Shown here piece after piece: positions 5,340-32,496 of a stretch of 32,496 nt of DNA. A model generated the notes under the pieces. That model made no database searches. It was not told where the DNA came from and was given only the letters and a program-made list of their open reading frames with translations. Made by a program: the position numbers and the translations under genes. The stretch spans positions 1-32,496 of the forward strand of contig CAIUUK010000034.1 in NCBI GenBank assembly GCA_903902315.1, read 5' to 3'. The stretch is from an uncultured bacterium. GTDB lineage: Bacteria > Patescibacteriota > Minisyncoccia > Phycocordibacterales > PALSA-1337. The first letter of the stretch is position 1; every line of letters begins with the position of its first letter.

Positions 5340-5948
5340 ATGCCTCCATTTCCTCCTCAAAATAACGCACCAGTTCCTCCTGCACCAGTCCCATCAAATC
5401 CTAGTCAAAATTCAGGACAAAATTTTTCAGTTGATTTACTTCAGAAAAATCCAAAATTCATAGAAACCATAAAAACTTTTGTTATTTATGGCACAATCAT
5501 GGCCGTAATCAGCTCAGTAGTCGGTATGCTCGTCTCAGTTTTTCATTTCTCAGCGTATTCAGATTACAGTTCTTTTGATTTCGCAGCTTTGATCTTCAGT
5601 ATAATATACGGAGCTATCGGTTCTGCTATAGGTGGAGTGGTCTTTTATTTCCTTTATGAGCCGATCAAAAACTGGGTCAAAGGTAGCGGTTTCTTGTCAA
5701 AATACATCCATGATATGTTTACATTGTTCTGGAAGCCTGCACTTGTTGGGTATATCATCAGTGGTGTTTTTGCACTATTAAGTATATTGAGTATCGGTGC
5801 AACATTAGGAGCGGCGGCTGGACTGGTCGCAGTTGGTTTCGGAGCACTCTTTGTCGGTTGGGCGGTGAGCTTCGTCGTCAACATCGGTGTTTACTATTGG
5901 TATGCAAAGGCTGTTTCTGCAAAGCTTGAACCATTGTATCCTTGGTAA
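5340..5948 (+). CDS. Proline-rich N-terminus plus Yip1-like polytopic membrane protein
   Basis: Cytosolic PPFPPQNNAPVPPAPVP leader followed by ~5 TM segments. Confidence 0.5.
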   Translation: MPPFPPQNNAPVPPAPVPSNPSQNSGQNFSVDLLQKNPKFIETIKTFVIYGTIMAVISSVVGMLVSVFHFSAYSDYSSFDFAALIFSIIYGAIGSAIGGVVFYFLYEPIKNWVKGSGFLSKYIHDMFTLFWKPALVGYIISGVFALLSILSIGATLGAAAGLVAVGFGALFVGWAVSFVVNIGVYYWYAKAVSAKLEPLYPW

Positions 5949-8787: not shown

Positions 8788-10020
8788 ATGTCTCCACTTC
8801 TTACATATATAGAAAGTCAGCTGAAACTTGGTACGACTAGGGAAGTCATAACCGCTCAACTTCTAGGTCAAGGTTGGACTAGAGCTGACATTGACCGTGG
8901 GTTTATCTCATTGGAGGTGCCATTGACACCAGTCACACCTGTAACACCAACTATTCCTGTAATAACAGCTACACCTCTCGCACCACAACAAGTACAGGTT
9001 AAAAAATCATCAACAAGTTCAGTTATCACGCTCATTGTTCTTATAATTATTCTGCTTCTAATCGGTGGTGGTGTTTATTTTTACTTTACATTTATTGCGC
9101 ACAATACGCCTGCTCAAGTAGCTGACAGCAGTATATTTGATTCAGCTTCGACTACTTCAAATGATATAGGAAATACTACAGTTACTGTTGAATCAACGCC
9201 TATAAATACTTCTGCCACAAATGTTGTTACTCCCTCAGCGTCAGCCACATCTCCAGTCTCAACTCAGAAAACAGCTTCACCAGCTGTAGTAGTAAGTAAA
9301 TCAAATACAGCAGGTACAGCCAGACAATCAAACCCTGTTATAACTCTACGTGGACAATCTAAAGTAGTCATCACTCAAGGTGATACATATAAAGATTCTG
9401 GTGCAACAGCATATGATCAGGTCGATGGTACTATTTCAGATAATATAGTTACAACAGGTTTGCCAATTGACACAACAAAACCTGGTACATATACCATCAC
9501 ATATTCAGTCACTGATTCGGTCGGTTTGTCTGCAACAAAAGTATATAGAATCGTTAGTGTTCTAGCGCCTGCTTATACAAAGTTTGGTTACAAAGCTACT
9601 TTGTTTCCAGGTATAACTTTGACTGTTAGTAAGCCACAACCATATTCTACAACTACTCCGGATTATAATGACGACAGTTCGTATCAACCACGACCTGGTT
9701 ATCAATATATGGTTGCTACTGCAACATTTGATAATCAAACATCTATGGATATGCCTGAACAAGGACAATATATGGATACTAATTATACAGATTTTCACAT
9801 TGTTGATGCAAATGGCAACGGATATCCTGTTTCAGCGACATTTGTTAATAATTCCAGTGCTAATCCAGCAGCTTTAACTGGTTTTCATCTTCTTGCTTAC
9901 ACCCAACAAACTGGAACAGTCATCTTCGAAATTCCTACATCAATGCCAACAACATCTGATTTAAAGGTGGTCTATCAGTGGTCATCTGATCCAACAATTA
10001 AAGCTACTTTCGGTAACTAG
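8788..10020 (+). CDS. Membrane-anchored protein with DUF5011-like Ig domain and C-terminal beta domain
   Basis: Region NPVITLRGQSKVVITQGDTYKDSGATAYDQVDGTISDNIVTTGLPIDTTKPGTYTITYSVTDSVGLSATKVYRIVSV matches the DUF5011/bacterial Ig-like pattern; preceded by TM and S/T-rich linker. Confidence 0.7.
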   Translation: MSPLLTYIESQLKLGTTREVITAQLLGQGWTRADIDRGFISLEVPLTPVTPVTPTIPVITATPLAPQQVQVKKSSTSSVITLIVLIIILLLIGGGVYFYFTFIAHNTPAQVADSSIFDSASTTSNDIGNTTVTVESTPINTSATNVVTPSASATSPVSTQKTASPAVVVSKSNTAGTARQSNPVITLRGQSKVVITQGDTYKDSGATAYDQVDGTISDNIVTTGLPIDTTKPGTYTITYSVTDSVGLSATKVYRIVSVLAPAYTKFGYKATLFPGITLTVSKPQPYSTTTPDYNDDSSYQPRPGYQYMVATATFDNQTSMDMPEQGQYMDTNYTDFHIVDANGNGYPVSATFVNNSSANPAALTGFHLLAYTQQTGTVIFEIPTSMPTTSDLKVVYQWSSDPTIKATFGN

Positions 10021-17048: not shown

Positions 17049-18017
17049 TTATTTTTTGCGTTCAGGTTTTAATTTCCGAATCTCTCGAGCCATTTCGTGA
17101 GATGTTTTATAAACCTTGATTCGGTCCCAGACTGCGACTTGTTCTGACTGATCAAACCTCGATAATAGAGCGGCCACCTCGATGCTCATTTTTTGTGTGC
17201 CAGCCCGATGAGCTTCTTCGGTAGTCATATCCACCAATGGTTTTAGTTCGTCACACAAGTTCGCTAGTGCGAGCAGGTGATAGAAAACGATTGGTGATGT
17301 CTCATTCACACGCTTGTGGAATGTTGATTTTGAGGCATTATTATCTTCCAAATAAGACATGATTCCTTTTGAAACCTCAGTTGGCTTGTAACTGCCACCG
17401 CAGTATTTCTTGGTGAACTTATCAAATTCTGGATTTCGTTCAGCCAACCTAACAAGTGTGTCTAGGCGACCTTGTATAGCAACATTTTCCAACCGTTCGA
17501 TTTTTTCTGTGCTTTTTAATTCACAGCTCTCACCATTGTCTCGAACGATCATGGATTTGTCGTCGAACAGATTTGATCTCTCGACGATGTTTACAGGTGT
17601 TGGTTTCGCAATAATTTCCCAATTAGGAATACTTTCTCCTATGATTGAGAAGGACATTGAATCACTATGAATTTCTGGTGAAAATTGTATTTTGCCAGTA
17701 TCAAGGACGTGTCTCGTTTGGCGGTCAATCAAATAAATGATACATGGAACATAAAACATATTTTGTGTTGGCACATATTTCAATATGACGAAAATATTAG
17801 TCCCATCTGACGGTGCCGCACCTTGAATGTGATCAATAAATTCTTTGTTATCAGTTTTGAATGTTTCAACTGATTTGAAGCTGGCTTCGACTAGTTTATT
17901 GAAACCATCAGAGTAGCGAACGCCACTAATGCCTCCAGAAACCACAACCGAAATTACTTGCATAACTATAGTCTGCACCACTGTTGAAGCTGGTGCTTTT
18001 TGTGCTTTGTTTTTCAT
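17049..18017 (-). CDS. Hypothetical protein, 322 aa
   Basis: Long complete ORF; no family recognised. Confidence 0.7.
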   Translation of the reverse strand: MKNKAQKAPASTVVQTIVMQVISVVVSGGISGVRYSDGFNKLVEASFKSVETFKTDNKEFIDHIQGAAPSDGTNIFVILKYVPTQNMFYVPCIIYLIDRQTRHVLDTGKIQFSPEIHSDSMSFSIIGESIPNWEIIAKPTPVNIVERSNLFDDKSMIVRDNGESCELKSTEKIERLENVAIQGRLDTLVRLAERNPEFDKFTKKYCGGSYKPTEVSKGIMSYLEDNNASKSTFHKRVNETSPIVFYHLLALANLCDELKPLVDMTTEEAHRAGTQKMSIEVAALLSRFDQSEQVAVWDRIKVYKTSHEMAREIRKLKPERKK

Positions 18018-24314: not shown

Positions 24315-24826
24315 TCACAATCCAAAATACGCAGACAGGTCAGTATAGTACGGACTCTTATGAATCGTTTCTGTTAGCTGGGTCCAAAAGTCATCCTTTG
24401 ACGAGAACTCGCCTATGTCACTATCTCGCCATGCAAGGTCAACATACTTTCGAGCAGATGCGATATTGCCTGAGTAAATGAGGTCAATAGCATATTTCCA
24501 TGCCACATCAGGACCAGCCGCGCTACTCCAGCTCGTAATCATCTTCGCCATCTTCTGTATTTCCGCACTGCTCGGCGCAGGCTTTCGCATGAGTGTAGCA
24601 TCGGCTTTGTATTTTCCGTGCTGAAGACTTAGTACGACTGGCGGCATCGGCGACCCAGCAAAACTTGTATGCCAATATGAAAATATATCCTCGTTAGTTT
24701 CAATTTCCAAGACCCCATCATGGTTCAAGTCTTTGAATACTATACCGTAATCGCCAGTATTGAGGTCCAGCAGAACAGAAAGAGGTGTGCTCAACTGGAT
24801 GATATAGCTATGTGTACAGCAATGAG
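24315..24826 (-). pseudogene. 5'-truncated gene for a secreted/periplasmic-type protein (AHCCTHSYIIQLS...TGDYGIVFKDLNHDGVLEI...FGL)
   Basis: The ORF track extends it to 24938, but the N-terminal ~38 aa are antisense to recombinase coding sequence, so they are probably not native. Confidence 0.5.
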
Positions 24827-25181
24827 CATTACTAAGAACGACTATGACAAAAAACAGCAAGAGTTCATGGATAAACAAAATCTGCTCAACCTTGAACTTG
24901 AGGAACACACCACAGCGGACCATGACTATAAAATCCATGTGGATACTGTGTTTAATCTGGCTCGCAACATGAAAGAGATATTCGATGGTTCTGAACCGCT
25001 CGAAAAACGCGCATTTCTCAACTTCATGCTTCAGAACCCGACCGTATCGGGAAAAAGGCTAGAGTTTACAATGCGAAAATCATTCAATCTGATACTTGAA
25101 TTGGCTACTTGTCCAATTGGGCTCACAACATGGGACGATGTTCGAACCTACATTATGTGTGATTTACCCCACAGCGGGTGA
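24823..25181 (+). pseudogene. C-terminal remnant of a large serine recombinase (resolvase/invertase family); catalytic N-terminus absent
   Basis: ITKNDYDKKQQEFMDKQNLLNLELEEHTTADHDYKIHVDTVFNLARNMKEIFDGSEPLEKRAFLNFMLQNPTVSGKRLEFTMRKSFNLILELATCPIGL is the typical C-terminal coiled-coil/tail of Patescibacterial site-specific serine recombinases. No SR catalytic domain lies upstream. Confidence 0.75.
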
Positions 25182-25222
25182 CACTATAGTTTGCAGGGAA
25201 GTTCACGATGTTTACATGTGCA
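25121..25222. repeat. Junction element, full 102-bp copy 1 (includes recombinase 3' end)
   Basis: GCTCACAACATGGGACGATGTTCGAACCTACATTATGTG...GATGTTTACATGTGCA; aligned by eye with copies at 27055 and 27953. Confidence 0.93.
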
Positions 25223-25239
25223 CTTGAGGTAATAAAATC

Positions 25240-25262
25240 AGCGCCACCTTGCGGAGGCGCCG
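25240..25262 (-). terminator. Terminator of the 120-aa cassette gene (AGCGGCGCC-TCCGCAAGGT-GGCGCT + ATTTTATT on minus)
   Basis: GC-rich hairpin then T-rich tail, read on minus strand. Confidence 0.7.
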
Positions 25263-25287
25263 CTTTGAAGACTAAGGTATATTTTGA

Positions 25288-25650
25288 TTATAGTTTTGGC
25301 TCTGGACGACCAGAAGCCTCGCGCGCCGCTTTGAGACTTAACCAAATGTTGTCTGCGGGAGAAAGTAGTAAGGTGACGTCTCTTCGGTTGTTCATGCGGG
25401 AAATAAATTCGTCGAGAAAAGCCTCAGAACGATCATTGAGTGTTGTTAATGTGTTATCAGGTGCTTGCTCAGACCCTTGTTTAGGCTTGAGAAGCTTCTT
25501 GGTCTCCTCTAATGTGGCCATGGTTATGTTGAAACCTTCTGCAAGTTTTGGGTCTGTAAGCATCCTTTGAGACCGCACTTCAAGCTGATGAATGAGTTCT
25601 CCAAGTAAGAAAAGTCTATCTTGGAGTTCTCTTGTTTGTTTTTCGTCCAT
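25288..25650 (-). CDS. Hypothetical protein, 120 aa (cassette gene)
   Basis: Complete ORF with upstream promoter-like TTGACA and downstream terminator. Confidence 0.7.
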   Translation of the reverse strand: MDEKQTRELQDRLFLLGELIHQLEVRSQRMLTDPKLAEGFNITMATLEETKKLLKPKQGSEQAPDNTLTTLNDRSEAFLDEFISRMNNRRDVTLLLSPADNIWLSLKAAREASGRPEPKL

Positions 25651-25728
25651 ACTATTCCTTATTGTTTTGTTGTTGTTCTGTTGTTTACCCCCCAGCCTAC
25701 CTCTTAGGAAATAAATGTCAATAAAAGA

Positions 25729-25752
25729 AAAACCCGCCTGTCACACGGGTTT
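25729..25752 (-). terminator. Terminator hairpin AAACCCG...CGGGTTTTTC (minus)
   Basis: Hairpin plus T-rich tail downstream of 25770 gene. Confidence 0.75.
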
Positions 25753-25769
25753 AATGTGTTTGAGGCGAG

Positions 25770-26006
25770 TTAAGGTTTTTTCTTCGGTCCGCATTTCTTT
25801 GCAAGACCTTGGAAGATTTCTGCGAGGAGTTGAAACAAATGCTTCAGTATCCATCTCCCGAATTTGGTGAGCTGTTTAAGCTCCCAAGTGATTACCTTCT
25901 TACCAGTATCAGGTCCACCAAAGAGTAAACCAGTAGCAAATGATATGATAAGAATGAAGACGACGAGGACGAACAAACTGTTGAGCGGGTTATTCGAATT
26001 ATTCAT
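25770..26006 (-). CDS. Small membrane protein, 78 aa (cassette gene)
   Basis: N-terminal TM LFVLVVFILIISFATGLLF; 13 nt downstream of the next gene's stop, operonic. Confidence 0.65.
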   Translation of the reverse strand: MNNSNNPLNSLFVLVVFILIISFATGLLFGGPDTGKKVITWELKQLTKFGRWILKHLFQLLAEIFQGLAKKCGPKKKP

Positions 26007-26019
26007 TGGTTTCCTTGAT

Positions 26020-26322
26020 TCAGTTCAAAATCCCGCATCCACCTTGATTTGGAATCCAGAGTATTGCCTCCGGCCACTTCAAAGGTGACTGGGCGAGATT
26101 TTGCGGAAAATGGACAACACGTCCATCTGGGAAATGTGTAATCTTGGAAATTTTACCGATCATCATTTCCCACGTTCCGTAAGAACGGTAGGGAATGGGA
26201 AGTTCGGCACCAGTTGTAAGCGCTTGCTTAAGCACTTCTTCTGGAGGAACGTTACAACGTTGGACTGCGACGAATATGCTCTTGGGTTTCAAGGGGTAAC
26301 CGTCGGTATTTAGATGTGTCAT
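26020..26322 (-). CDS. Hypothetical protein, 100 aa (cassette gene)
   Basis: Complete ORF downstream of promoter 26377-26405. Confidence 0.65.
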   Translation of the reverse strand: MTHLNTDGYPLKPKSIFVAVQRCNVPPEEVLKQALTTGAELPIPYRSYGTWEMMIGKISKITHFPDGRVVHFPQNLAQSPLKWPEAILWIPNQGGCGILN

Positions 26323-26376
26323 GTGCTATCCTTTCTTTGTTTATCCAGCTGGTTCATCCAGGCAGATTTGTTGTTA

Positions 26377-26405
26377 ATGATAGCACGACTATTTAGTTTT
26401 GTCAA
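26377..26405 (-). promoter_or_regulatory. Promoter TTGACA-N17-TATCAT (minus)
   Basis: Direct match: TTGACA at 26400-26405, TATCAT at 26377-26382. Confidence 0.85.
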
Positions 26406-26408
26406 ACG

Positions 26409-26449
26409 GCTCCCATGGTCGTCTGTGCTTGGAACTTTGGAGTGGGGGA
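26409..26449. repeat. Junction element, short subtype (GCTCCCATGGTCGTCTGTGCTTGGAACTTTGGAGTGGGGGAA)
   Basis: One mismatch to the copy that runs into the window end at 32456. Confidence 0.88.
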
Positions 26450-26491
26450 ATATAGGTATGAATTTGAAAATTACTTGTTTTATCCAAAAGA

Positions 26492-26524
26492 AAAACCGCC
26501 CCAACAAAGTGCCATCGGGGCGAT
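26492..26524 (-). terminator. Terminator CGCCCCGATGGCACTTTGTTGGGGCGGTTTTTC (minus)
   Basis: Perfect GC stem plus T-tract. Confidence 0.8.
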
Positions 26525-26549
26525 CTTTGGGAGGGCGGAATATGCGGTA

Positions 26550-26936
26550 TCAATTATACCTACAGGTTGCACCAACAATTTTTCCGTCCAATTCAAACAG
26601 TAGTGTGACGTTATTCAAAAGGTTGCCACATTTTTGATAAAGTTTAATTCGAACAGCCGGGACTTTGTCCTCGAAGTTGAAAACAAACGATACCATTCTA
26701 TTGCAGTCAGTTGTTTTAATCACTCTGGTCAGTTCACATATGACCTCCCAAAATTCATTCCGTCCCATTTGAGATGAGTATTTGGCTGCCGTTACTGTAT
26801 CACCCATTGCCATTAGCTGTAACTCAATAGGTAGGCGCATGGCCGCCATGTAGGCAATTGTGTAGGGTCCATCGGGGAATGTTTCTACTGAACTACGGAC
26901 ATTGGAGTCTACTGTCATGCTTGTGCGTTTTACCAT
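26550..26936 (-). CDS. Hypothetical protein, 128 aa (cassette gene)
   Basis: Complete ORF. Confidence 0.65.
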   Translation of the reverse strand: MVKRTSMTVDSNVRSSVETFPDGPYTIAYMAAMRLPIELQLMAMGDTVTAAKYSSQMGRNEFWEVICELTRVIKTTDCNRMVSFVFNFEDKVPAVRIKLYQKCGNLLNNVTLLFELDGKIVGATCRYN

Positions 26937-27022
26937 AACGTGATTTTCCTTTCGGGTTGTGGCTCACTACGGCCAGGTTTTTGTTTTAATAGAGCAGTTC
27001 TCACATGAGGTGCCCAAATTCT

Positions 27023-27050
27023 ATTATATAACACTATTTGTGTTTGTCAA
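27023..27050 (-). promoter_or_regulatory. Promoter TTGACA-N16-TATAAT (minus)
   Basis: TTGACA 27045-27050; TATAAT 27023-27028. Confidence 0.85.
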
Positions 27051-27054
27051 CTCT

Positions 27055-27156
27055 GCTCACAACGTGGGATGATGTTCGAACCTACATTATGAGTGATTTA
27101 CCCCACAGTAGGTGACACTATAGTTCGTAGGGAAGTTTACGATGTTCACATGTGCA
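27055..27156. repeat. Junction element, full 102-bp copy 2
   Basis: GCTCACAACGTGGGATGATGTTCGAACCTACATTATGAG...GATGTTCACATGTGCA; keeps frame LTTWDDVRTYIMSDLPHSR*. Confidence 0.93.
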
Positions 27157-27160
27157 TCAC

Positions 27161-27214
27161 ATAAACAGAAAACCCACCATCTCGTGACAGTGGGTTACTG
27201 TGTTGAGAGGTGAG
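27161..27214 (-). terminator. Terminator/3'UTR (AACCCAC-...-GTGGGTTTTCTGTTTAT on minus), duplicated at 31953-32006
   Basis: Hairpin plus T-rich tail; near-identical copy elsewhere in the array. Confidence 0.8.
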
Positions 27215-27219
27215 TTGTT

Positions 27220-27792
27220 TTAGAACCCGTTGACGTAGGCAGGGCGAGGTTCGCCACATTCAGTCCAGGTGCCGTCTGTCTCGAGTTTTTCCCAGCGAAC
27301 TTCGTAGGAGAGCGTCATCGGCCCAAGTTTGGAACTGAATCCAGACTTGAGAGTATCAACCGAAGCGTTGCGGGGGAATTGGCGACAGATGTTAATCAAG
27401 GAGTCTTCGACCAGCACAACGTCATGTTTCGTATTCGATTGAAACTTGCCGTTGTTGCGATGGTTGTAGGCGACAGCCCGGAAGGTCGTCTTGGCATTCA
27501 CTGCCCAAGAGACTTCATCCCAATCCTGTTTGATGGCCCAACGCGCAGCTTTGGTCCGGTTGTTCGTATCGCGAATCAGGACAACCTTGTCACCCAATGA
27601 CGGTGGATAGATTTCCTGATTCCGCGTCATGACAATCGCGCCAGTCGGAGTGAGCTCCAGATTGCCACCTTGTTTGCAGTGGCAGAGGATATGTTCCGGT
27701 TCGCCATTCTGGACGAAAAAGTAATCTGCATTTTGGACACGTTTGACTGTCGCAACGACAAGTCCTTGATTGATGTTAAAGTTCAGTATCAT
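27220..27792 (-). CDS. Hypothetical protein, 190 aa, N-terminal cold-shock/OB-like domain possible (cassette gene)
   Basis: GLVVATVKRVQNADYFFVQNGEPEHILCHCKQGGNLE...YPPSLGDKVVLIRDTNNRTKAARWAI resembles CSD spacing (FFV / HILCH / GDKV / AARW). Confidence 0.65.
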   Translation of the reverse strand: MILNFNINQGLVVATVKRVQNADYFFVQNGEPEHILCHCKQGGNLELTPTGAIVMTRNQEIYPPSLGDKVVLIRDTNNRTKAARWAIKQDWDEVSWAVNAKTTFRAVAYNHRNNGKFQSNTKHDVVLVEDSLINICRQFPRNASVDTLKSGFSSKLGPMTLSYEVRWEKLETDGTWTECGEPRPAYVNGF

Positions 27793-27923
27793 AAACGTCC
27801 TTTTCTTTTCCTTAAAGGTCCTTCAAAGAAGGAGAGAATAGCGATTTTTGGTTATTTAGTCTCTAGCACATGCCTATTCTTGCCGTGTGGTAAGAAAGCT
27901 CTCGTATTTAAGGAACCTTCACA

Positions 27924-27952
27924 ATGGTAGCATATAAATGTATGCTTGTCAA
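27924..27952 (-). promoter_or_regulatory. Promoter TTGACA-N17-TACCAT (minus)
   Basis: TTGACA 27947-27952; TACCAT 27924-27929. Confidence 0.8.
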
Positions 27953-28054
27953 GCTCACAACGTGGGACAATGTTCGAACCTATATTATGAGTGATTTACA
28001 CTTCAGTAGGTGACGCTATAGTTTATAGGGAAGTTCACGATGTTCACATGTGCA
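27953..28054. repeat. Junction element, full 102-bp copy 3
   Basis: GCTCACAACGTGGGACAATGTTCGAACCTATATTATGAG...GATGTTCACATGTGCA; keeps frame LTTWDNVRTYIMSDLHFSR*. Confidence 0.93.
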
Positions 28055-28125
28055 CAGAGATAAAAAGAAACCCGCCACCATATTTCAGATAGCGAGAGTT
28101 TTTGTGTGGTGTTTAGTAACCACTT

Positions 28126-28428
28126 TTATCTACCGAGCTTCTGTGGACGAATGTCCGCAGGCAACTTCATGTCCAAAGCATACTCGGCAGTTCCTGCCAA
28201 ATGAAGAAAGCGTCCTTCCAGACTCTTGAACTTCATCAAGCACTCGCGTAGCTTGAGACTGTGCTCAGGTGTCGGCTTGTCGTTCATGTAGACGAGAGCA
28301 TTGTGCAAGTCTGTTGTCGCACTTGTCAGCTCATCGTGTAAGTCGCCCAGAAGTTCGTCAAGCGCATCACTTACTGGTTTGAGCGGGGCGAAACCATCAG
28401 TTGCTTCAGTAGCGGTTCCAAGTAACAT
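28126..28428 (-). CDS. Hypothetical protein, 100 aa, helical (cassette gene)
   Basis: Complete ORF. Confidence 0.6.
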   Translation of the reverse strand: MLLGTATEATDGFAPLKPVSDALDELLGDLHDELTSATTDLHNALVYMNDKPTPEHSLKLRECLMKFKSLEGRFLHLAGTAEYALDMKLPADIRPQKLGR

Positions 28429-28503
28429 GTCGCTGGTTTTTAGGTGTATTGTTTTGGAACACCAAGGCTTCCTTTCAGAGCCAATCCATTTATATCAAAA
28501 AAC

Positions 28504-28543
28504 TATATGCCAGCATGATAGCATATAAGATGTATAGTGTCAA
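28504..28543 (-). promoter_or_regulatory. Promoter TTGACA-N17-TATCAT with dyad TATATGC-N10-GCATATA over the -10
   Basis: TTGACA 28538-28543; TATCAT 28515-28520; dyad arms 28504-28510 and 28521-28527. Confidence 0.85.
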
Positions 28544-28548
28544 GTAAT

Positions 28549-28589
28549 GCTCGCTCTATTGGACGAGTTCAGAACTTTGGAGTGGGGAA
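28549..28589. repeat. Junction element, short subtype (GCTCGCTCTATTGGACGAGTTCAGAACTTTGGAGTGGGGAAG)
   Basis: Aligns with 26409, 29830 and 32456 copies. Confidence 0.8.
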
Positions 28590-28630
28590 GGATTGAAAGA
28601 GGGTTGGAAAAGTTGAGTTTTGTGTAAATA

Positions 28631-28662
28631 AAAACCGCGCCTACTTCAAGAGTAAACGCGGT
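28631..28662 (-). terminator. Terminator ACCGCG...CGCGGTTTTTATTT (minus)
   Basis: Hairpin plus T-tract. Confidence 0.75.
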
Positions 28663-28713
28663 CATTTGAGTCCTATGACTCCGGATTTTCACCGAGTGCG
28701 GATAGCACCATTT

Positions 28714-29265
28714 TTAATCCATCGGGAACGGGAATGGCGAGGTAACAATGCGTGGTTCGATATAAATCGGTTCCACTTTCGAGCTGTTTGGGTCCTTCAT
28801 CAGGATCCATGTCCCCTCGGCGCTCGCCGGAGAGAACAATCCGTTCGGATCAGCTTGAGGCAAGGTCAGATAACCTCCACCACTGCGGTATTCAACCTTC
28901 TGCGGGTTGGTGTATTCCGTCGCGTAGGGGATTCCATATCCGATAGTCTGGCCGATGTAGGTCAGCTTTCCACCGCGCGCCGTGTAGCCGTGCACAATGG
29001 TCGGGTTCATGTTTTCCAGGTAGGTGTAGGTCACCAGATTGGCCTGATCCCGCAGTTCCAAGACCATCTTGAGAAGCTTGCGCTCCTGGAAGTTCTTGAT
29101 AGCGGGCATGCCCGTCTGCGCCGTGCCTTCCTGCAGGAGTTTTTCCTGGTTGTCGCGTTGGATGTCGTCGCTCGACGGGGCATCACAACCCGAGTTTCCG
29201 GCGCAGGTCAGATACAGCAATGAGCCGCAAACAGCCGTCATGATGATTCGTGTCAGTTTTTTCAT
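28714..29265 (-). CDS. Predicted exported/lipoprotein-like protein, 183 aa (GC-rich cassette gene)
   Basis: Signal-like MKKLTRIIMTAVCGSLLYLTCAGNSGCDAPSS; ...LRDQANLVTYTYLEN...GKLTYIGQTIGYGIPYATEYTNPQK. Confidence 0.75.
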   Translation of the reverse strand: MKKLTRIIMTAVCGSLLYLTCAGNSGCDAPSSDDIQRDNQEKLLQEGTAQTGMPAIKNFQERKLLKMVLELRDQANLVTYTYLENMNPTIVHGYTARGGKLTYIGQTIGYGIPYATEYTNPQKVEYRSGGGYLTLPQADPNGLFSPASAEGTWILMKDPNSSKVEPIYIEPRIVTSPFPFPMD

Positions 29266-29298
29266 AGTCGTTTTTTCGTTTCAGTTTTTCTGTGGTTT

Positions 29299-29649
29299 TT
29301 ACTGTATCAGACCAGCGTTGAGTTTGAGTTGACGAATGAAGGTCCGCAGGCTGTCCGGCATACTTGCTTCCGGATAGTCAGCGGCTTGTTGGAGGATAAC
29401 ACTTGCCATGGCGGACTGAACGTTTGTGTCGCCGGTGTGGCTGATGTATTCGAGCTGCATCTTTTGCAGCTGCTGAACCATGCCCTGATTGTAGGACTTG
29501 GTTTGTTCGAACGTCTGGCGCCGGACCGCTTCATACTTCGGTGCGAACACCTTGTAGAGGAAGAAGTCGTTGCCTTCTGCGATCCACCCGAGCCCCAACA
29601 CCACGATGAGTGTCAGGAGAGCGAGTCCGATGATTTGACTTGTTTTCAT
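29299..29649 (-). CDS. Predicted membrane-anchored protein (GC-rich cassette gene); start moved to MKTSQIIGL
   Basis: TM IIGLALLTLIVVLGLGWIAEGNDFFLYKVFAPKYEAVRRQTFEQTKSYNQGM; codon/GC pattern changes at about 29649. Confidence 0.75.
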   Translation of the reverse strand: MKTSQIIGLALLTLIVVLGLGWIAEGNDFFLYKVFAPKYEAVRRQTFEQTKSYNQGMVQQLQKMQLEYISHTGDTNVQSAMASVILQQAADYPEASMPDSLRTFIRQLKLNAGLIQ

Positions 29650-29782
29650 AATAAATATACTGCGTTTTTGGTTTCTTTTGTTTCTGCAGTGTTTTTTAGT
29701 CAGCTGCATTTTTCAGGGCTCAATAAAGCACTAAAAAATGCAGCCGTCGAAAACAAGTCACCATTTGAATATGTCAAAAAAC

Positions 29783-29822
29783 TATATGCCAGCATGATAG
29801 CATATAATATGTTGTGTGTCAA
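29783..29822 (-). promoter_or_regulatory. Promoter TTGACA-N17-TATCAT with TATATGC-N10-GCATATA dyad
   Basis: TTGACA 29817-29822; TATCAT 29794-29799; dyad 29783-29806. Confidence 0.85.
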
Positions 29823-29829
29823 TAGTGGG

Positions 29830-29860
29830 GCTCCGCACGTTGGACGAATTCAGAACTTTA
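29830..29860. repeat. Junction element, short copy (GCTCCGCACGTTGGACGAATTCAGAACTTT)
   Basis: 5' half matches the 31908 copy (GCTCCGCACGT), 3' half matches the 28549 copy (TTCAGAACTTT). Confidence 0.75.
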
Positions 29861-29911
29861 AATTGTTTTATTATTGAAAGTGAGATGGGGAAGTGGAGTT
29901 TAGAAATTCTA

Positions 29912-29948
29912 CAAAAAAAATTAACCCACCTTCTTTCGTTGGTGGGTG
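29912..29948 (-). terminator. Terminator ACCCACC-AACGAAAGAA-GGTGGGTTAATTTTTTTT (minus)
   Basis: Perfect stem plus T8. Confidence 0.85.
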
Positions 29949-29962
29949 TCTACGTCTTGTTT

Positions 29963-30175
29963 TTATGGAACAAGTCTTGCAGAACAAATGATGGCGATGA
30001 AAAGAAAAATTAATCCCCAAATCATCGGTCCGTAGGTTGGTCGCGTTCCTGCAAGAGTAACGCTCTGTTTTCTTTGTTCAGACTGGATTTTAAATGCCCA
30101 GATCATGTTCAACATGAACAGCAGTGTTGAAATGGCACATATCGTTGCAAGTATTATGATTTTAAATTCGGACAT
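29963..30175 (-). CDS. Small two-TM membrane protein, 70 aa (cassette gene)
   Basis: Complete ORF. Confidence 0.65.
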   Translation of the reverse strand: MSEFKIIILATICAISTLLFMLNMIWAFKIQSEQRKQSVTLAGTRPTYGPMIWGLIFLFIAIICSARLVP

Positions 30176-30200
30176 GGTATTCCTTTGTTTATGGTCGTTA

Positions 30201-30270
30201 GTTGCTACTCACAAGACATCTAAATGTCCTCTGAGTAACAGCCAACACCAAACAGGTATGTCAAAAAACT
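30201..30270 (-). repeat. Duplicated 5' leader, copy 1, with hairpin TACTCA...TGAGTA
   Basis: Matches 30987-31056. Confidence 0.8.
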
Positions 30271-30271
30271 A

Positions 30272-30310
30272 CTATGCCGAAATGATAGCATAGATTATTA
30301 ATTATGTCAA
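30272..30310 (-). promoter_or_regulatory. Promoter TTGACA-N17-TATCAT with CTATGC-N10-GCATAG dyad
   Basis: TTGACA 30305-30310; TATCAT 30282-30287; dyad arms 30272-30277 and 30288-30293. Confidence 0.82.
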
Positions 30311-30311
30311 A

Positions 30312-30593
30312 TTACTTTCGTAACTTTTCTCCTTTCTTGTAACAGATAAAAATAAGAAGAGTAGTCAATACAATGATTGGCAATGCGAATGTCAAGAAAT
30401 TGCTTCCCGAATCAGGATTACCGAAGGTCTCATTTTCTCTATTGAGTACAAAAACCACGATGAGTGCAACATATGCAAGAATGACAAGCCAGCCTTGCCA
30501 TTTTGCTGGCGTCCAACCCCAGCCGTAGATCTTGGCCTTGAACCAATAACCCTGCGGGTTGTCTCTCAAGTAGTTTATATATTCTTTGATCAT
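30312..30593 (-). CDS. Small membrane protein, 93 aa (YWFKAKIYGWGWTPAKWQGWLVILAYV family seen in CPR genomes)
   Basis: Complete ORF, 2-3 TM; family recalled, not searched. Confidence 0.7.
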   Translation of the reverse strand: MIKEYINYLRDNPQGYWFKAKIYGWGWTPAKWQGWLVILAYVALIVVFVLNRENETFGNPDSGSNFLTFALPIIVLTTLLIFICYKKGEKLRK

Positions 30594-30640
30594 GTAGTTC
30601 TATTTTAGCACTAAAAGAAATTTCTACTGTATAAAAAGAA

Positions 30641-30676
30641 AACCGCCGATCGGATTTCTCTGATCAGACGGTGTTA
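30641..30676 (-). terminator. Terminator ACCGTCTGATCA...CGATCGGCGGTTTTCTTTTT (minus)
   Basis: Hairpin plus T-rich tail. Confidence 0.75.
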
Positions 30677-30692
30677 AATTATGGTGTCACTT

Positions 30693-30965
30693 TTATGGAA
30701 CCAAGGTGACACCTGGAACATTTAGTTCGATAAGAATGCCATCTTCGCTATCGACGATGTTGTTTGGACCGTAGAACAAGACGTAAAACAAATATTCGTC
30801 GTCCCCGTTACAGTTTTTTACTAACCGCTTAATCGGGGAAGCTGGTATGGTGTTGGGTTGTGGTTCTTCGAGAAATGTCCACAATCCTCCACGCACATCC
30901 TTGATTTTTGAACCTTTTGCTGCTTGAGCAAAGTCTTCTGGTCTAATTGGTGTGATGTAATTCAT
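30693..30965 (-). CDS. Hypothetical protein, ~90 aa (start at MNYITPIRPEDF preferred over track start 31031)
   Basis: Upstream 22 codons lie in the duplicated leader. Confidence 0.6.
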   Translation of the reverse strand: MNYITPIRPEDFAQAAKGSKIKDVRGGLWTFLEEPQPNTIPASPIKRLVKNCNGDDEYLFYVLFYGPNNIVDSEDGILIELNVPGVTLVP

Positions 30966-30986
30966 ATTTCTATTTGTTGGTTGATG

Positions 30987-31056
30987 GTTGCTACTCACAA
31001 GGCACCTAAATGTCCTCTGAGTAACAGCCAACTACCTATAGGTATGTCAAAAAACT
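30987..31056 (-). repeat. Duplicated 5' leader, copy 2
   Basis: See 30201-30270. Confidence 0.8.
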
Positions 31057-31096
31057 ATATGCCAGCATGATAGCATATAAAATACATAGTGTCAAG
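31056..31096 (-). promoter_or_regulatory. Promoter TTGACA-N18-TATCAT with TATATGC-N10-GCATATA dyad
   Basis: TTGACA 31091-31096; TATCAT 31067-31072. Confidence 0.8.
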
Positions 31097-31101
31097 TAAT
31101 G

Positions 31102-31137
31102 CTCCAGATGTTGAATGAAGTTAGAACCAACGTATTT
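31102..31137. repeat. Junction element, divergent short copy (GCTCCAGATGTTGAATGAAGTTAGAACCAACGTATTT)
   Basis: Occupies the same position relative to promoter and terminator as other copies. Confidence 0.6.
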
Positions 31138-31144
31138 AAATAAA

Positions 31145-31189
31145 AAAGAACCCACCAAACGAACAGTGGATTCTCTGTTCGGGCGGGCA
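31145..31189 (-). terminator. Terminator CCCGCCCGAACAG...CTGTTCGTTTGGTGGGTTCTTTTTT (minus)
   Basis: Two-part stem plus T-tract. Confidence 0.75.
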
Positions 31190-31210
31190 CTAATACTTAA
31201 AACTCATTTG

Positions 31211-31717
31211 TTATGTTAACTCTTTAGCGGCGTTAGCAATGCTTTCAAGATACGCTAACCAATCATCAAGAGCAGGGTTAATTTCGGGTATTTCCACACG
31301 ACTTCGTCCGCCATTGTCATACTCGATGACTATTCCGTCATTGATGAGACCGTTAAGGATTGTTCGTCGCTCTTCTCTATCTGTATTGTGTGCAAAAGAA
31401 CGATTAATGACGAATGGGTATGTAAGGTAAGAGTGACGTTTTTGAAGCAATTGGATCGATGCAATCATGTCGTTCTTTTTCTTGATTGTTTCGACCAAAT
31501 TGAAGAGTTGCCCATACAACTGACTGTTGATCATTGCGCGATAGTTTATAACAGCCGCCGCAATTGTCATCTTACCGTTGTTTTTAACCTCATAGGTTAA
31601 TTCATCAAAACCAACCTGAATCACGGAATCACTTTTTTCTGAGGCGGTTTCGATAGATTTACCAAGGGACCATAACTGTTCTCCAAATTGTTCAATTAGT
31701 TCATTTCTTGATGGCAT
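31211..31717 (-). CDS. Hypothetical protein, 168 aa (cassette gene)
   Basis: Complete ORF; TTGACA at 31807-31812 upstream. Confidence 0.65.
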   Translation of the reverse strand: MPSRNELIEQFGEQLWSLGKSIETASEKSDSVIQVGFDELTYEVKNNGKMTIAAAVINYRAMINSQLYGQLFNLVETIKKKNDMIASIQLLQKRHSYLTYPFVINRSFAHNTDREERRTILNGLINDGIVIEYDNGGRSRVEIPEINPALDDWLAYLESIANAAKELT

Positions 31718-31907
31718 ATTTAGCCTTTCTATTTAATTGTGTTTATTGGTTACAAGCCAATGTGTGCCGTTGTATTATGTGTACAGTACTATTTATTATG
31801 GACATATGTCAACTATGACTAACACAGATTCAATTCTGAAGTGTAACGGGTTCGAAACCTATTCTAGTCAACTAAAATCACCTTGATATACAAAGTGATT
31901 TTTAAGT

Positions 31908-31944
31908 GCTCCGCACGTGGGATGATGTTCGAACCTATATTGTG
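31908..31944. repeat. Junction element, truncated A-type copy (GCTCCGCACGTGGGATGATGTTCGAACCTATATTGTG)
   Basis: Matches the first ~37 nt of the 102-bp element. Confidence 0.88.
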
Positions 31945-31952
31945 GATAATAT

Positions 31953-32006
31953 ATAAACAGAAAACCCACCATCTCGCGACAGTGGGTTACTGTGTTGAGT
32001 GGTGGG
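31953..32006 (-). terminator. Terminator/3'UTR, near-identical to 27161-27214
   Basis: ATAAACAGAAAACCCACCATCTCGYGACAGTGGGTTACTGTGTTGAG shared. Confidence 0.8.
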
Positions 32007-32010
32007 TTGA

Positions 32011-32376
32011 TTAGGTGGTAACCAAACTCAGTTCACCTTTCTCCTCGTTCACGACCAAGACAGAGAATGGACTTGGAAAGGGAAGTGATTTGGCTTCGAC
32101 AACTTGAGCTGGTTTTCTTTTCAAAAGACCAGCACGACGTAATCTTGCTTCGGAAACCACAACCAAGTTCAGCTCATCGGCCTCCTTGCGAATATCGAAG
32201 CTCGCCATACCAAGACTGAAGCGTTCCTTCAAATTTTTTGGAGTTGGAAGAATTAGGACCCTGATCCCGCTATGTTTTTGCATGTGAAGCCAAGACTGGA
32301 ACGGTTGTAGTATGAAATCCCACGGACCATTAGACAGAGCGTCAATGTGGTGTAGTGGAACGAATGCTTTTTTCAT
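32011..32376 (-). CDS. Hypothetical protein, 121 aa (cassette gene)
   Basis: Complete ORF. Confidence 0.65.
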   Translation of the reverse strand: MKKAFVPLHHIDALSNGPWDFILQPFQSWLHMQKHSGIRVLILPTPKNLKERFSLGMASFDIRKEADELNLVVVSEARLRRAGLLKRKPAQVVEAKSLPFPSPFSVLVVNEEKGELSLVTT

Positions 32377-32416
32377 CTGTAATCCTTTTTGTTTGTGGTT
32401 GGTTTAATCAAAAAAC

Positions 32417-32455
32417 TGCTAAGTACATCTTAGCATATAATATAGTGTCTGTCAA
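32417..32455 (-). promoter_or_regulatory. Promoter TTGACA-N17-TAAGAT with TGCTAAG-N5-CTTAGCA dyad
   Basis: TTGACA 32450-32455; TAAGAT 32427-32432; dyad arms 32417-32423 and 32429-32435. Confidence 0.82.
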
Positions 32456-32496
32456 GCTCCCATGGTCGTCTGCGCTTGGAACTTTGGAGTGGGGGA
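32456..32496. repeat. Junction element, short subtype, cut by window end
   Basis: GCTCCCATGGTCGTCTGCGCTTGGAACTTTGGAGTGGGGGA. Confidence 0.88.

Follow-up and report, generated by a model that had tools for sequence, protein, structure and literature searches.

Integrons are the best-known collectors of single-gene cassettes; they work with a tyrosine recombinase and folded attC sites, and are known for spreading antibiotic resistance. In staphylococci, large serine recombinases (LSRs) of the Ccr type move cassette chromosomes (SCC elements) into one site, sometimes in tandem; these elements are tens of kb long, carry ccr, and target rlmH rather than a tRNA gene. In this work, we have analysed contig CAIUUK010000034.1 (here C34; assembly GCA_903902315.1), which is taken in its entire length of 32,496 nucleotides as the window, from a genome of the Patescibacteria (G000, 770 kb in 69 contigs), and we describe in its last third a tandem array of small gene units separated by copies of one junction element. 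Patescibacteria are tiny, probably parasitic bacteria. We consider it likely that these units form a tRNA-anchored, integron-like gene-cassette array, assembled via site-specific recombination by an LSR. Throughout, G000 is the source genome, the other G numbers denote compared genomes and the L numbers sequence stretches.

As in integrons, small and mostly unknown genes stand here in tandem and all point the same way, with one recombination site apiece, at a fixed platform, and the cargo overlaps (acetyltransferase, methyltransferase, NUDIX and toxin genes). The two systems differ in their machinery. The enzyme would be a serine and not a tyrosine recombinase, the sites would be unfolded double-strand attP-type half-sites and not folded attC sites, the platform would be a tRNA gene and not an attI site beside intI, and the LSR remnant is distal, away from the putative entry point. 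A promoter of their own is common in the cassettes described here, although sedentary chromosomal integrons also have cassette promoters. With the LSR elements found at tRNA 3' ends, the locus shares the recombinase clade, the distal half-site and, to judge by its relatives, probably the tRNA landing site; those elements carry an LSR gene and several kb of DNA, whereas most units here measure 0.3-2 kb and are recombinase-free. The cis-mobilizable elements (CIMEs) and the tandemly accreted integrative and conjugative or mobilizable elements (ICEs and IMEs) of Streptococcus also pile up as recombinase-less, att-flanked units at one site, but they are large and decayed and mostly involve tyrosine integrases, while the units here are single transcription units, of which nine or even more can stand in a row in a genome of less than 1 Mb. 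As to SCC elements, the LSR clade concerned shows weak, sub-cutoff similarity to the CcrA, CcrB and CcrC models. In the open-access literature we found no earlier description of such arrays, which is not proof of novelty.

The array and its junction elements

To judge by its sequence, each junction is a composite attachment site, made up of a conserved half of ~40 bp (the P half), the core GAGC, and the beginning of the next cassette, which varies and usually carries a promoter (the X half). A first-pass annotation of the window had placed nine such elements, and all are present where it put them, except that 31102 becomes 31101 once aligned on the core. Its count of eight complete units with 13 small open reading frames (ORFs), every one on the minus strand, is borne out by the ORF listing. 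The features are as follows.

24756..25136, plus strand: decayed C-terminal part of an LSR of the tRNA-Asn clade, reading into junction 1 (48% identity to residues 387-507 of the G031 LSR, L095; E 6e-30)
25121..25222, minus strand: junction 1, P half of class 2, conserved over ~102 bp, and core GAGC; the X side is the LSR remnant
25121..26408, minus strand: unit 1, ORFs 25288-25650, 25770-26006 and 26020-26322
26409..26449, minus strand: junction 2, P half and core; TTGACA 3 nt past the core
26409..27054, minus strand: unit 2, ORF 26550-26936
27055..27156, minus strand: junction 3, P half of class 2 and core
27055..27952, minus strand: unit 3, ORF 27220-27792
27953..28054, minus strand: junction 4, P half of class 2 and core
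27953..28548, minus strand: unit 4, ORF 28126-28428
28549..28589, minus strand: junction 5, P half of class 1, GTTCTGAACTCGTCCAA, and core
28549..29829, minus strand: unit 5, two-gene cassette, 28714-29265 and 29299-29709
29830..29870, minus strand: junction 6, P half and core
29830..31100, minus strand: unit 6, ORFs 29963-30175, 30312-30593 and 30693-31031
31101..31141, minus strand: junction 7, P half and core
31101..31907, minus strand: unit 7, ORF 31211-31717
31908..31948, minus strand: junction 8, P half of class 2 and core
31908..32455, minus strand: unit 8, ORF 32011-32376
32456..32496, minus strand: junction 9, P half and core, cut by the contig end
31055..31100, minus strand: example of a cassette start, with the -35 TTGACA after the core, the -10 within a hairpin, then TTTTTTGACAT

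Read on the minus strand, the nine junctions align without gaps across 45 columns, with G15TTC18 and G38AGC41 invariant. The copies at 25121, 27055 and 27953 are similar across ~102 bp, and those at 26409 and 32456 across 41 bp. The succession of GAGC and TTGACA, reported for most units in the first-pass annotation, is found at seven of the nine junctions, TTGACA lying 0-7 nt past GAGC; the exceptions are 25121, with its recombinase remnant, and 31908. A matrix built from 17 sites of other genomes only, without any window sequence, scores the nine junctions at 23.6-46.1, against 10.6 for the next-best place in the window, and the full matrix gave 0 matches of 20 or more in 3.2 Mb of shuffled sequence. 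Since BLAST with the 27055-type element alone recovered four of the nine copies, profiles were adopted for the junction search, and over the whole genome they returned these nine junctions only at E<0.1.

Could the element be a dispersed regulatory repeat or a terminator, its layout being the product of ordinary duplication and homologous recombination? It does sit between terminators and promoters, and the class 2 copies are alike over ~100 bp. However, the whole-genome search confines it to this array, related genomes carry the same kind of site, and in many of them it lies downstream of same-strand tRNA genes, its last bases following the tRNA sequence. Homologous recombination, furthermore, would not set breakpoints exactly at the core with differing P halves. 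This reading is largely refuted, and we regard it as very improbable. Hardly more credible is an integron of the classical type, whose attC sites would have diverged and whose integrase would be the one tyrosine recombinase encoded in this genome. It would account for tandem small ORFs without assigned function and for conserved boundaries, and the tyrosine recombinase is there. Nevertheless, RNAalifold gives 0 pairs across 26 junctions, the junction alignment has no GTTRRRY/RYYYAAC boxes, and the tyrosine recombinase matches the Xer models, XerA above its cutoff, while reaching 123 bits with the integron-integrase model, whose cutoff is 265 bits; the junctions have their sequence and position in common with LSR attachment sites. 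IntI and attC being absent, we use 'integron-like' by analogy only.

Junctions as probable half-sites of a tRNA-Asn serine recombinase

The impression that the boundaries resemble the end of a serine recombinase gene proved correct. The plus-strand frame 24720-25181, which ends inside junction 1, is the C-terminus of an LSR, with 48% identity over the residues listed above to the intact 509-aa LSR of the congener G031. In G031 this gene lies directly behind tRNA-Asn(GTT), and its final codons overlap the tRNA 3' end. The clade was found in 18 of the 397 genomes of the order, spread over 16 genera, and of its intact genes with an available 3' flank, most extend into the 3' end of tRNA-Asn and some into that of tRNA-Thr, -His or -Gln. 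The same layout, with an LSR C-terminus at a junction, is seen in another genus (G044). LSR elements carry one site of junction type at the end distal to the tRNA, for example in G218, G193, G291, G082 and G219, and G363 has an intact LSR element at tRNA-Asn with more junctions after it, which brings recombinase and array together at one locus.

Counted from the first base of GTTC through the last base of the core, the distance is 27 nt in the junctions and 22 nt in the host tRNA, and an inner TCC motif is equidistant in both. In serine integrases the zinc-domain motif lies 5 bp closer to the centre in attB than in attP (Rutherford et al. 2013; PMC3783163). The 5-bp shift of GTTC matches this published difference, so the tRNA would be the attB-type and the junction the attP-type half-site. 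If so, the cassette-like units are bounded by recombination sites, as the first-pass annotation had it, and these sites would be the attP-type halves of a tRNA-Asn LSR. The anchoring tRNA-Asn, the half-site structure and the loss of the intact recombinase go beyond that first reading.

Two side observations concern the recombinases. LSRs in L003, L072, L075, L087 and L090 have C-termini like LDSNQR or WDSNPR, which resemble the T-arm of a tRNA read antisense; ends of this type occur in many LSRs of these genomes, and provide a simple marker for LSR genes that overlap a tRNA attachment site. In G048 an LSR of another clade (L140:16138-17721) likewise terminates at a junction, whose core is at 17706, and sites of this type may thus serve LSRs of more than one clade.

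The link to tRNA genes was surveyed starting from junction matches, an upstream tRNA being looked for within 12 kb. Arrays or single sites lie behind a same-strand tRNA-Asn in ~18 genomes; among the junctions checked, none had an opposite-strand tRNA upstream within that distance, and a few have a same-strand tRNA downstream instead (L144, L148). The core tracks the host tRNA, even with the core columns masked during scoring: it is GAGC behind tRNA-Asn, CAGC behind tRNA-Gln(ctg) and CGCAC behind tRNA-Gly(ccc). An eight-site array behind tRNA-Gln(ctg) in G416 (L219) has a core that matches this tRNA. In the source genome tRNA-Asn is on a separate contig, C69, where it is followed by a terminator, a degenerate P-like stretch, one cassette-like gene that starts with the same promoter-leader type, and the contig end; the genes flanking this tRNA match the G023 locus. 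C34 in turn terminates within the ninth junction, exactly where the 41-bp repeat common to junction 2 ends. Since contigs commonly break in repeats, C34 probably adjoins C69, and the array would continue from 32496 toward tRNA-Asn.

An exact-pattern scan of GTDB returned 20 stretches: 13 named as Patescibacteria, six as 'bacterium' or 'uncultured bacterium', and one short contig assigned to the Alphaproteobacteria. Related sequences bear Patescibacteria names such as Kaiser-, Taylor- and Nomurabacteria. The alphaproteobacterial contig (L216, JAGWIK010000052.1) is 3.9 kb long, has two junctions and a Patescibacteria-type cassette start, and is probably mis-binned. The viral contig collection that we searched held neither the junction pattern nor the clade LSR, and lends no support to a phage vector. 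In L105, L106, L108, L110, L178, L208 and L217, tRNA-Asn(GTT) has introns of 212-574 nt near the anticodon, and of three that were checked, two (L105, L178) contain a group I intron according to Rfam.

Breakpoints at the core and proposed growth of the array

Junction 7 of the window and the site at 5382 in G023 agree at 85% of positions on the X side, in the 122 nt that start at the core, and at 52% on the P side. Conversely, junctions 1, 3 and 4 have a common P side and differing X sides. A cassette with a Fic domain is 90% identical over 1.2 kb between G363 and the L210 genome; its homology starts precisely at the core, and the P halves upstream differ. A degenerate P site in G363 (11056), first missed, was found because the Fic homology ended there. 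By these alignments, P and X halves assort independently at the core.

The cassettes themselves are shared across distances. The two genes of unit 5 are adjacent in a genome of a different family (G355, L187; 59% and 54% identity), next to an LSR of the same clade, and gene 30312 of unit 6 is 77-79% identical in G022, G020 and G004. A gene of ~170 aa forms its own unit behind tRNA-Asn in G044 and lies within a tRNA-Gly unit in G013. In G006 a YdeI-like gene stands 55 nt after tRNA-Asn, and its homologue in G001 is reached only past a 3.87-kb insert and a junction. For the cassette genes of the window, the G023 array gave no match. Cassette content differs among congeners, and a comparison of content and order, the refutation test attached to the cassette proposal, found relatives to differ in both.

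We propose that the landing site is the 3' end of tRNA-Asn(GTT), an attB-type half ending in ...GGAGC, and that each cassette comprises a promoter, one to three genes and a terminator, a small transcription unit closing with an attP-type half of ~40 bp and GAGC. As a circle, the cassette would bear P half-core-X, X being its own promoter end. Recombination of this P-core-X circle with B-core-X' at the tRNA would rebuild the tRNA and yield B-core-X ... P-core-X'. Because substrates and products are the same in kind, the next cassette may enter at the tRNA again, and this regeneration of the landing site would explain tandem growth without a special rule of direction. Elements that carry an LSR would enter likewise, their recombinase gene then running into the tRNA 3' end. 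In the source genome the cassettes would have the decayed LSR copy on one side and the expected position of the tRNA on the other, and the LSR for LSR-less cassettes may have been provided by a co-resident or former element.

Several points weigh against this proposal. Neither excision nor a circle is among our observations; recombination itself is deduced from the arrangement of the sites, and the contig link to tRNA-Asn is likewise indirect. The genome set has one genome per species, a restriction as regards strain-level gain and loss. X halves have no clear recombinase motif at fixed spacing, which is unusual for an LSR dimer site; the idea that they are symmetric recombinase half-sites was dropped, since TTGACA lies 0-7 nt past GAGC in the window and this spacing is too variable. 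The check proposed in the first-pass annotation, to locate a full-length serine recombinase in the genome, turned up none of this clade: G000 has five other serine recombinases, but at E<=1e-52 nothing in it matches the clade. Its intact LSRs, compared with the remnant, were rejected as the source, the closest reaching 28% identity over 58 residues (E 0.002). A serine recombinase is encoded in none of the eight units, the sole trace being the decayed C-terminus outside junction 1, and the G001 and G023 arrays also are without an intact adjacent LSR. With no intact clade LSR in these three arrays, mobility now needs a recombinase in trans or has ceased, and the array of the source genome may be dormant.

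Alternatively, the units could be shrunken, CIME-like remnants of successive LSR elements at tRNA-Asn that lost their recombinase genes, and not mobile cassettes at all. CIMEs and tandem accretion are described in a review (PMC5704250), whose definition of CIMEs the units fit, as they are att-flanked, devoid of recombination genes and in tandem. LSR elements with an intact LSR and the same distal P site exist at tRNA-Asn, and decayed LSR pieces are present in arrays. On the other hand, the units are small and compact (median 848 bp for 74 units in 26 stretches), many of them form a complete transcription unit that begins directly at the core with the same type of promoter and leader, and the same cargo genes recur next to sites at different tRNAs; decay would not yield such units repeatedly. 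As to an origin by decay of a larger element, the LSR remnant is at one array end only, and the units are compact. Accretion is doubtful as the whole explanation, if far from negligible. The two readings grade into each other and can coexist; the compact units and shared starts favour cassettes.

Taken further, the cassette reading would make this an integron that evolved independently a second time: a general platform for gene capture in Patescibacteria, with a trans-supplied serine recombinase that repeatedly inserts circular, self-expressing cassettes at a tRNA gene, the array staying open since B half-core-X and P half-core-X regenerate each other. We advance this tentatively, at not quite an even chance. 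Patescibacteria appear to have evolved an integron counterpart from a different enzyme. If this is true, array-type gene capture arose more than once, and these reduced, mostly uncultured bacteria would have a concrete route to accessory genes. It would also account for a stock of small unknown Patescibacteria genes, point to variable genes behind tRNA-Asn, -Gln and -Gly, and offer new LSRs with defined tRNA targets.

Cassette anatomy and cargo

In the arrays surveyed, 84 of the 111 ORFs of at least 80 aa are on the tRNA strand. Of 157 sites, 34 have a -35-like motif no more than 20 nt from the core, compared with 2.9% of random places. At twelve cassette starts a hairpin encloses the -10, and a stretch of T (usually TTTTTTGACAT) comes after it; their summed hairpin stem scores reach 90 against a shuffled mean of 50, above all 300 shuffled sets, although the G023 starts at 5382 and 9416 do not stand out singly. 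The promoter-overlapping hairpin with T6 (AGTTTTTTGACAT) has differing arms at window positions 30960-31100, 29680-29829, 28440-28548 and 32377-32455, in L112:505-651 and in L055. Such a terminator nested in the promoter would possibly block read-through yet spare the cassette's own transcript, insulating each cassette.

As to cargo, Pfam gave nothing above curated cut-offs for the 13 window ORFs. Other arrays encode methyltransferases, NUDIX proteins, an acetyltransferase, a YafQ toxin, a polysaccharide deacetylase and Fic proteins. A defence island is unsupported, since PADLOC produced merely scattered matches among 81 cassette proteins.

Unrelated cassette genes also have in common a long, stable 5' leader hairpin (TTGGCTG..GGACATTTAAGTGTCTT..GCAACC type), whose stems differ yet remain complementary. 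It occurs in the window at 30176-30312 and 30966-31100, and in L112:505-651, L055:5244-5381 and 9260-9415, and L140:3160-3342; Rfam has no known RNA in the window array, this hairpin included. A cassette-type promoter and hairpin (30264-30310) also stand directly past the end of gene 30312 with no junction between, for which reason unit 6 is probably a fusion of two cassettes.

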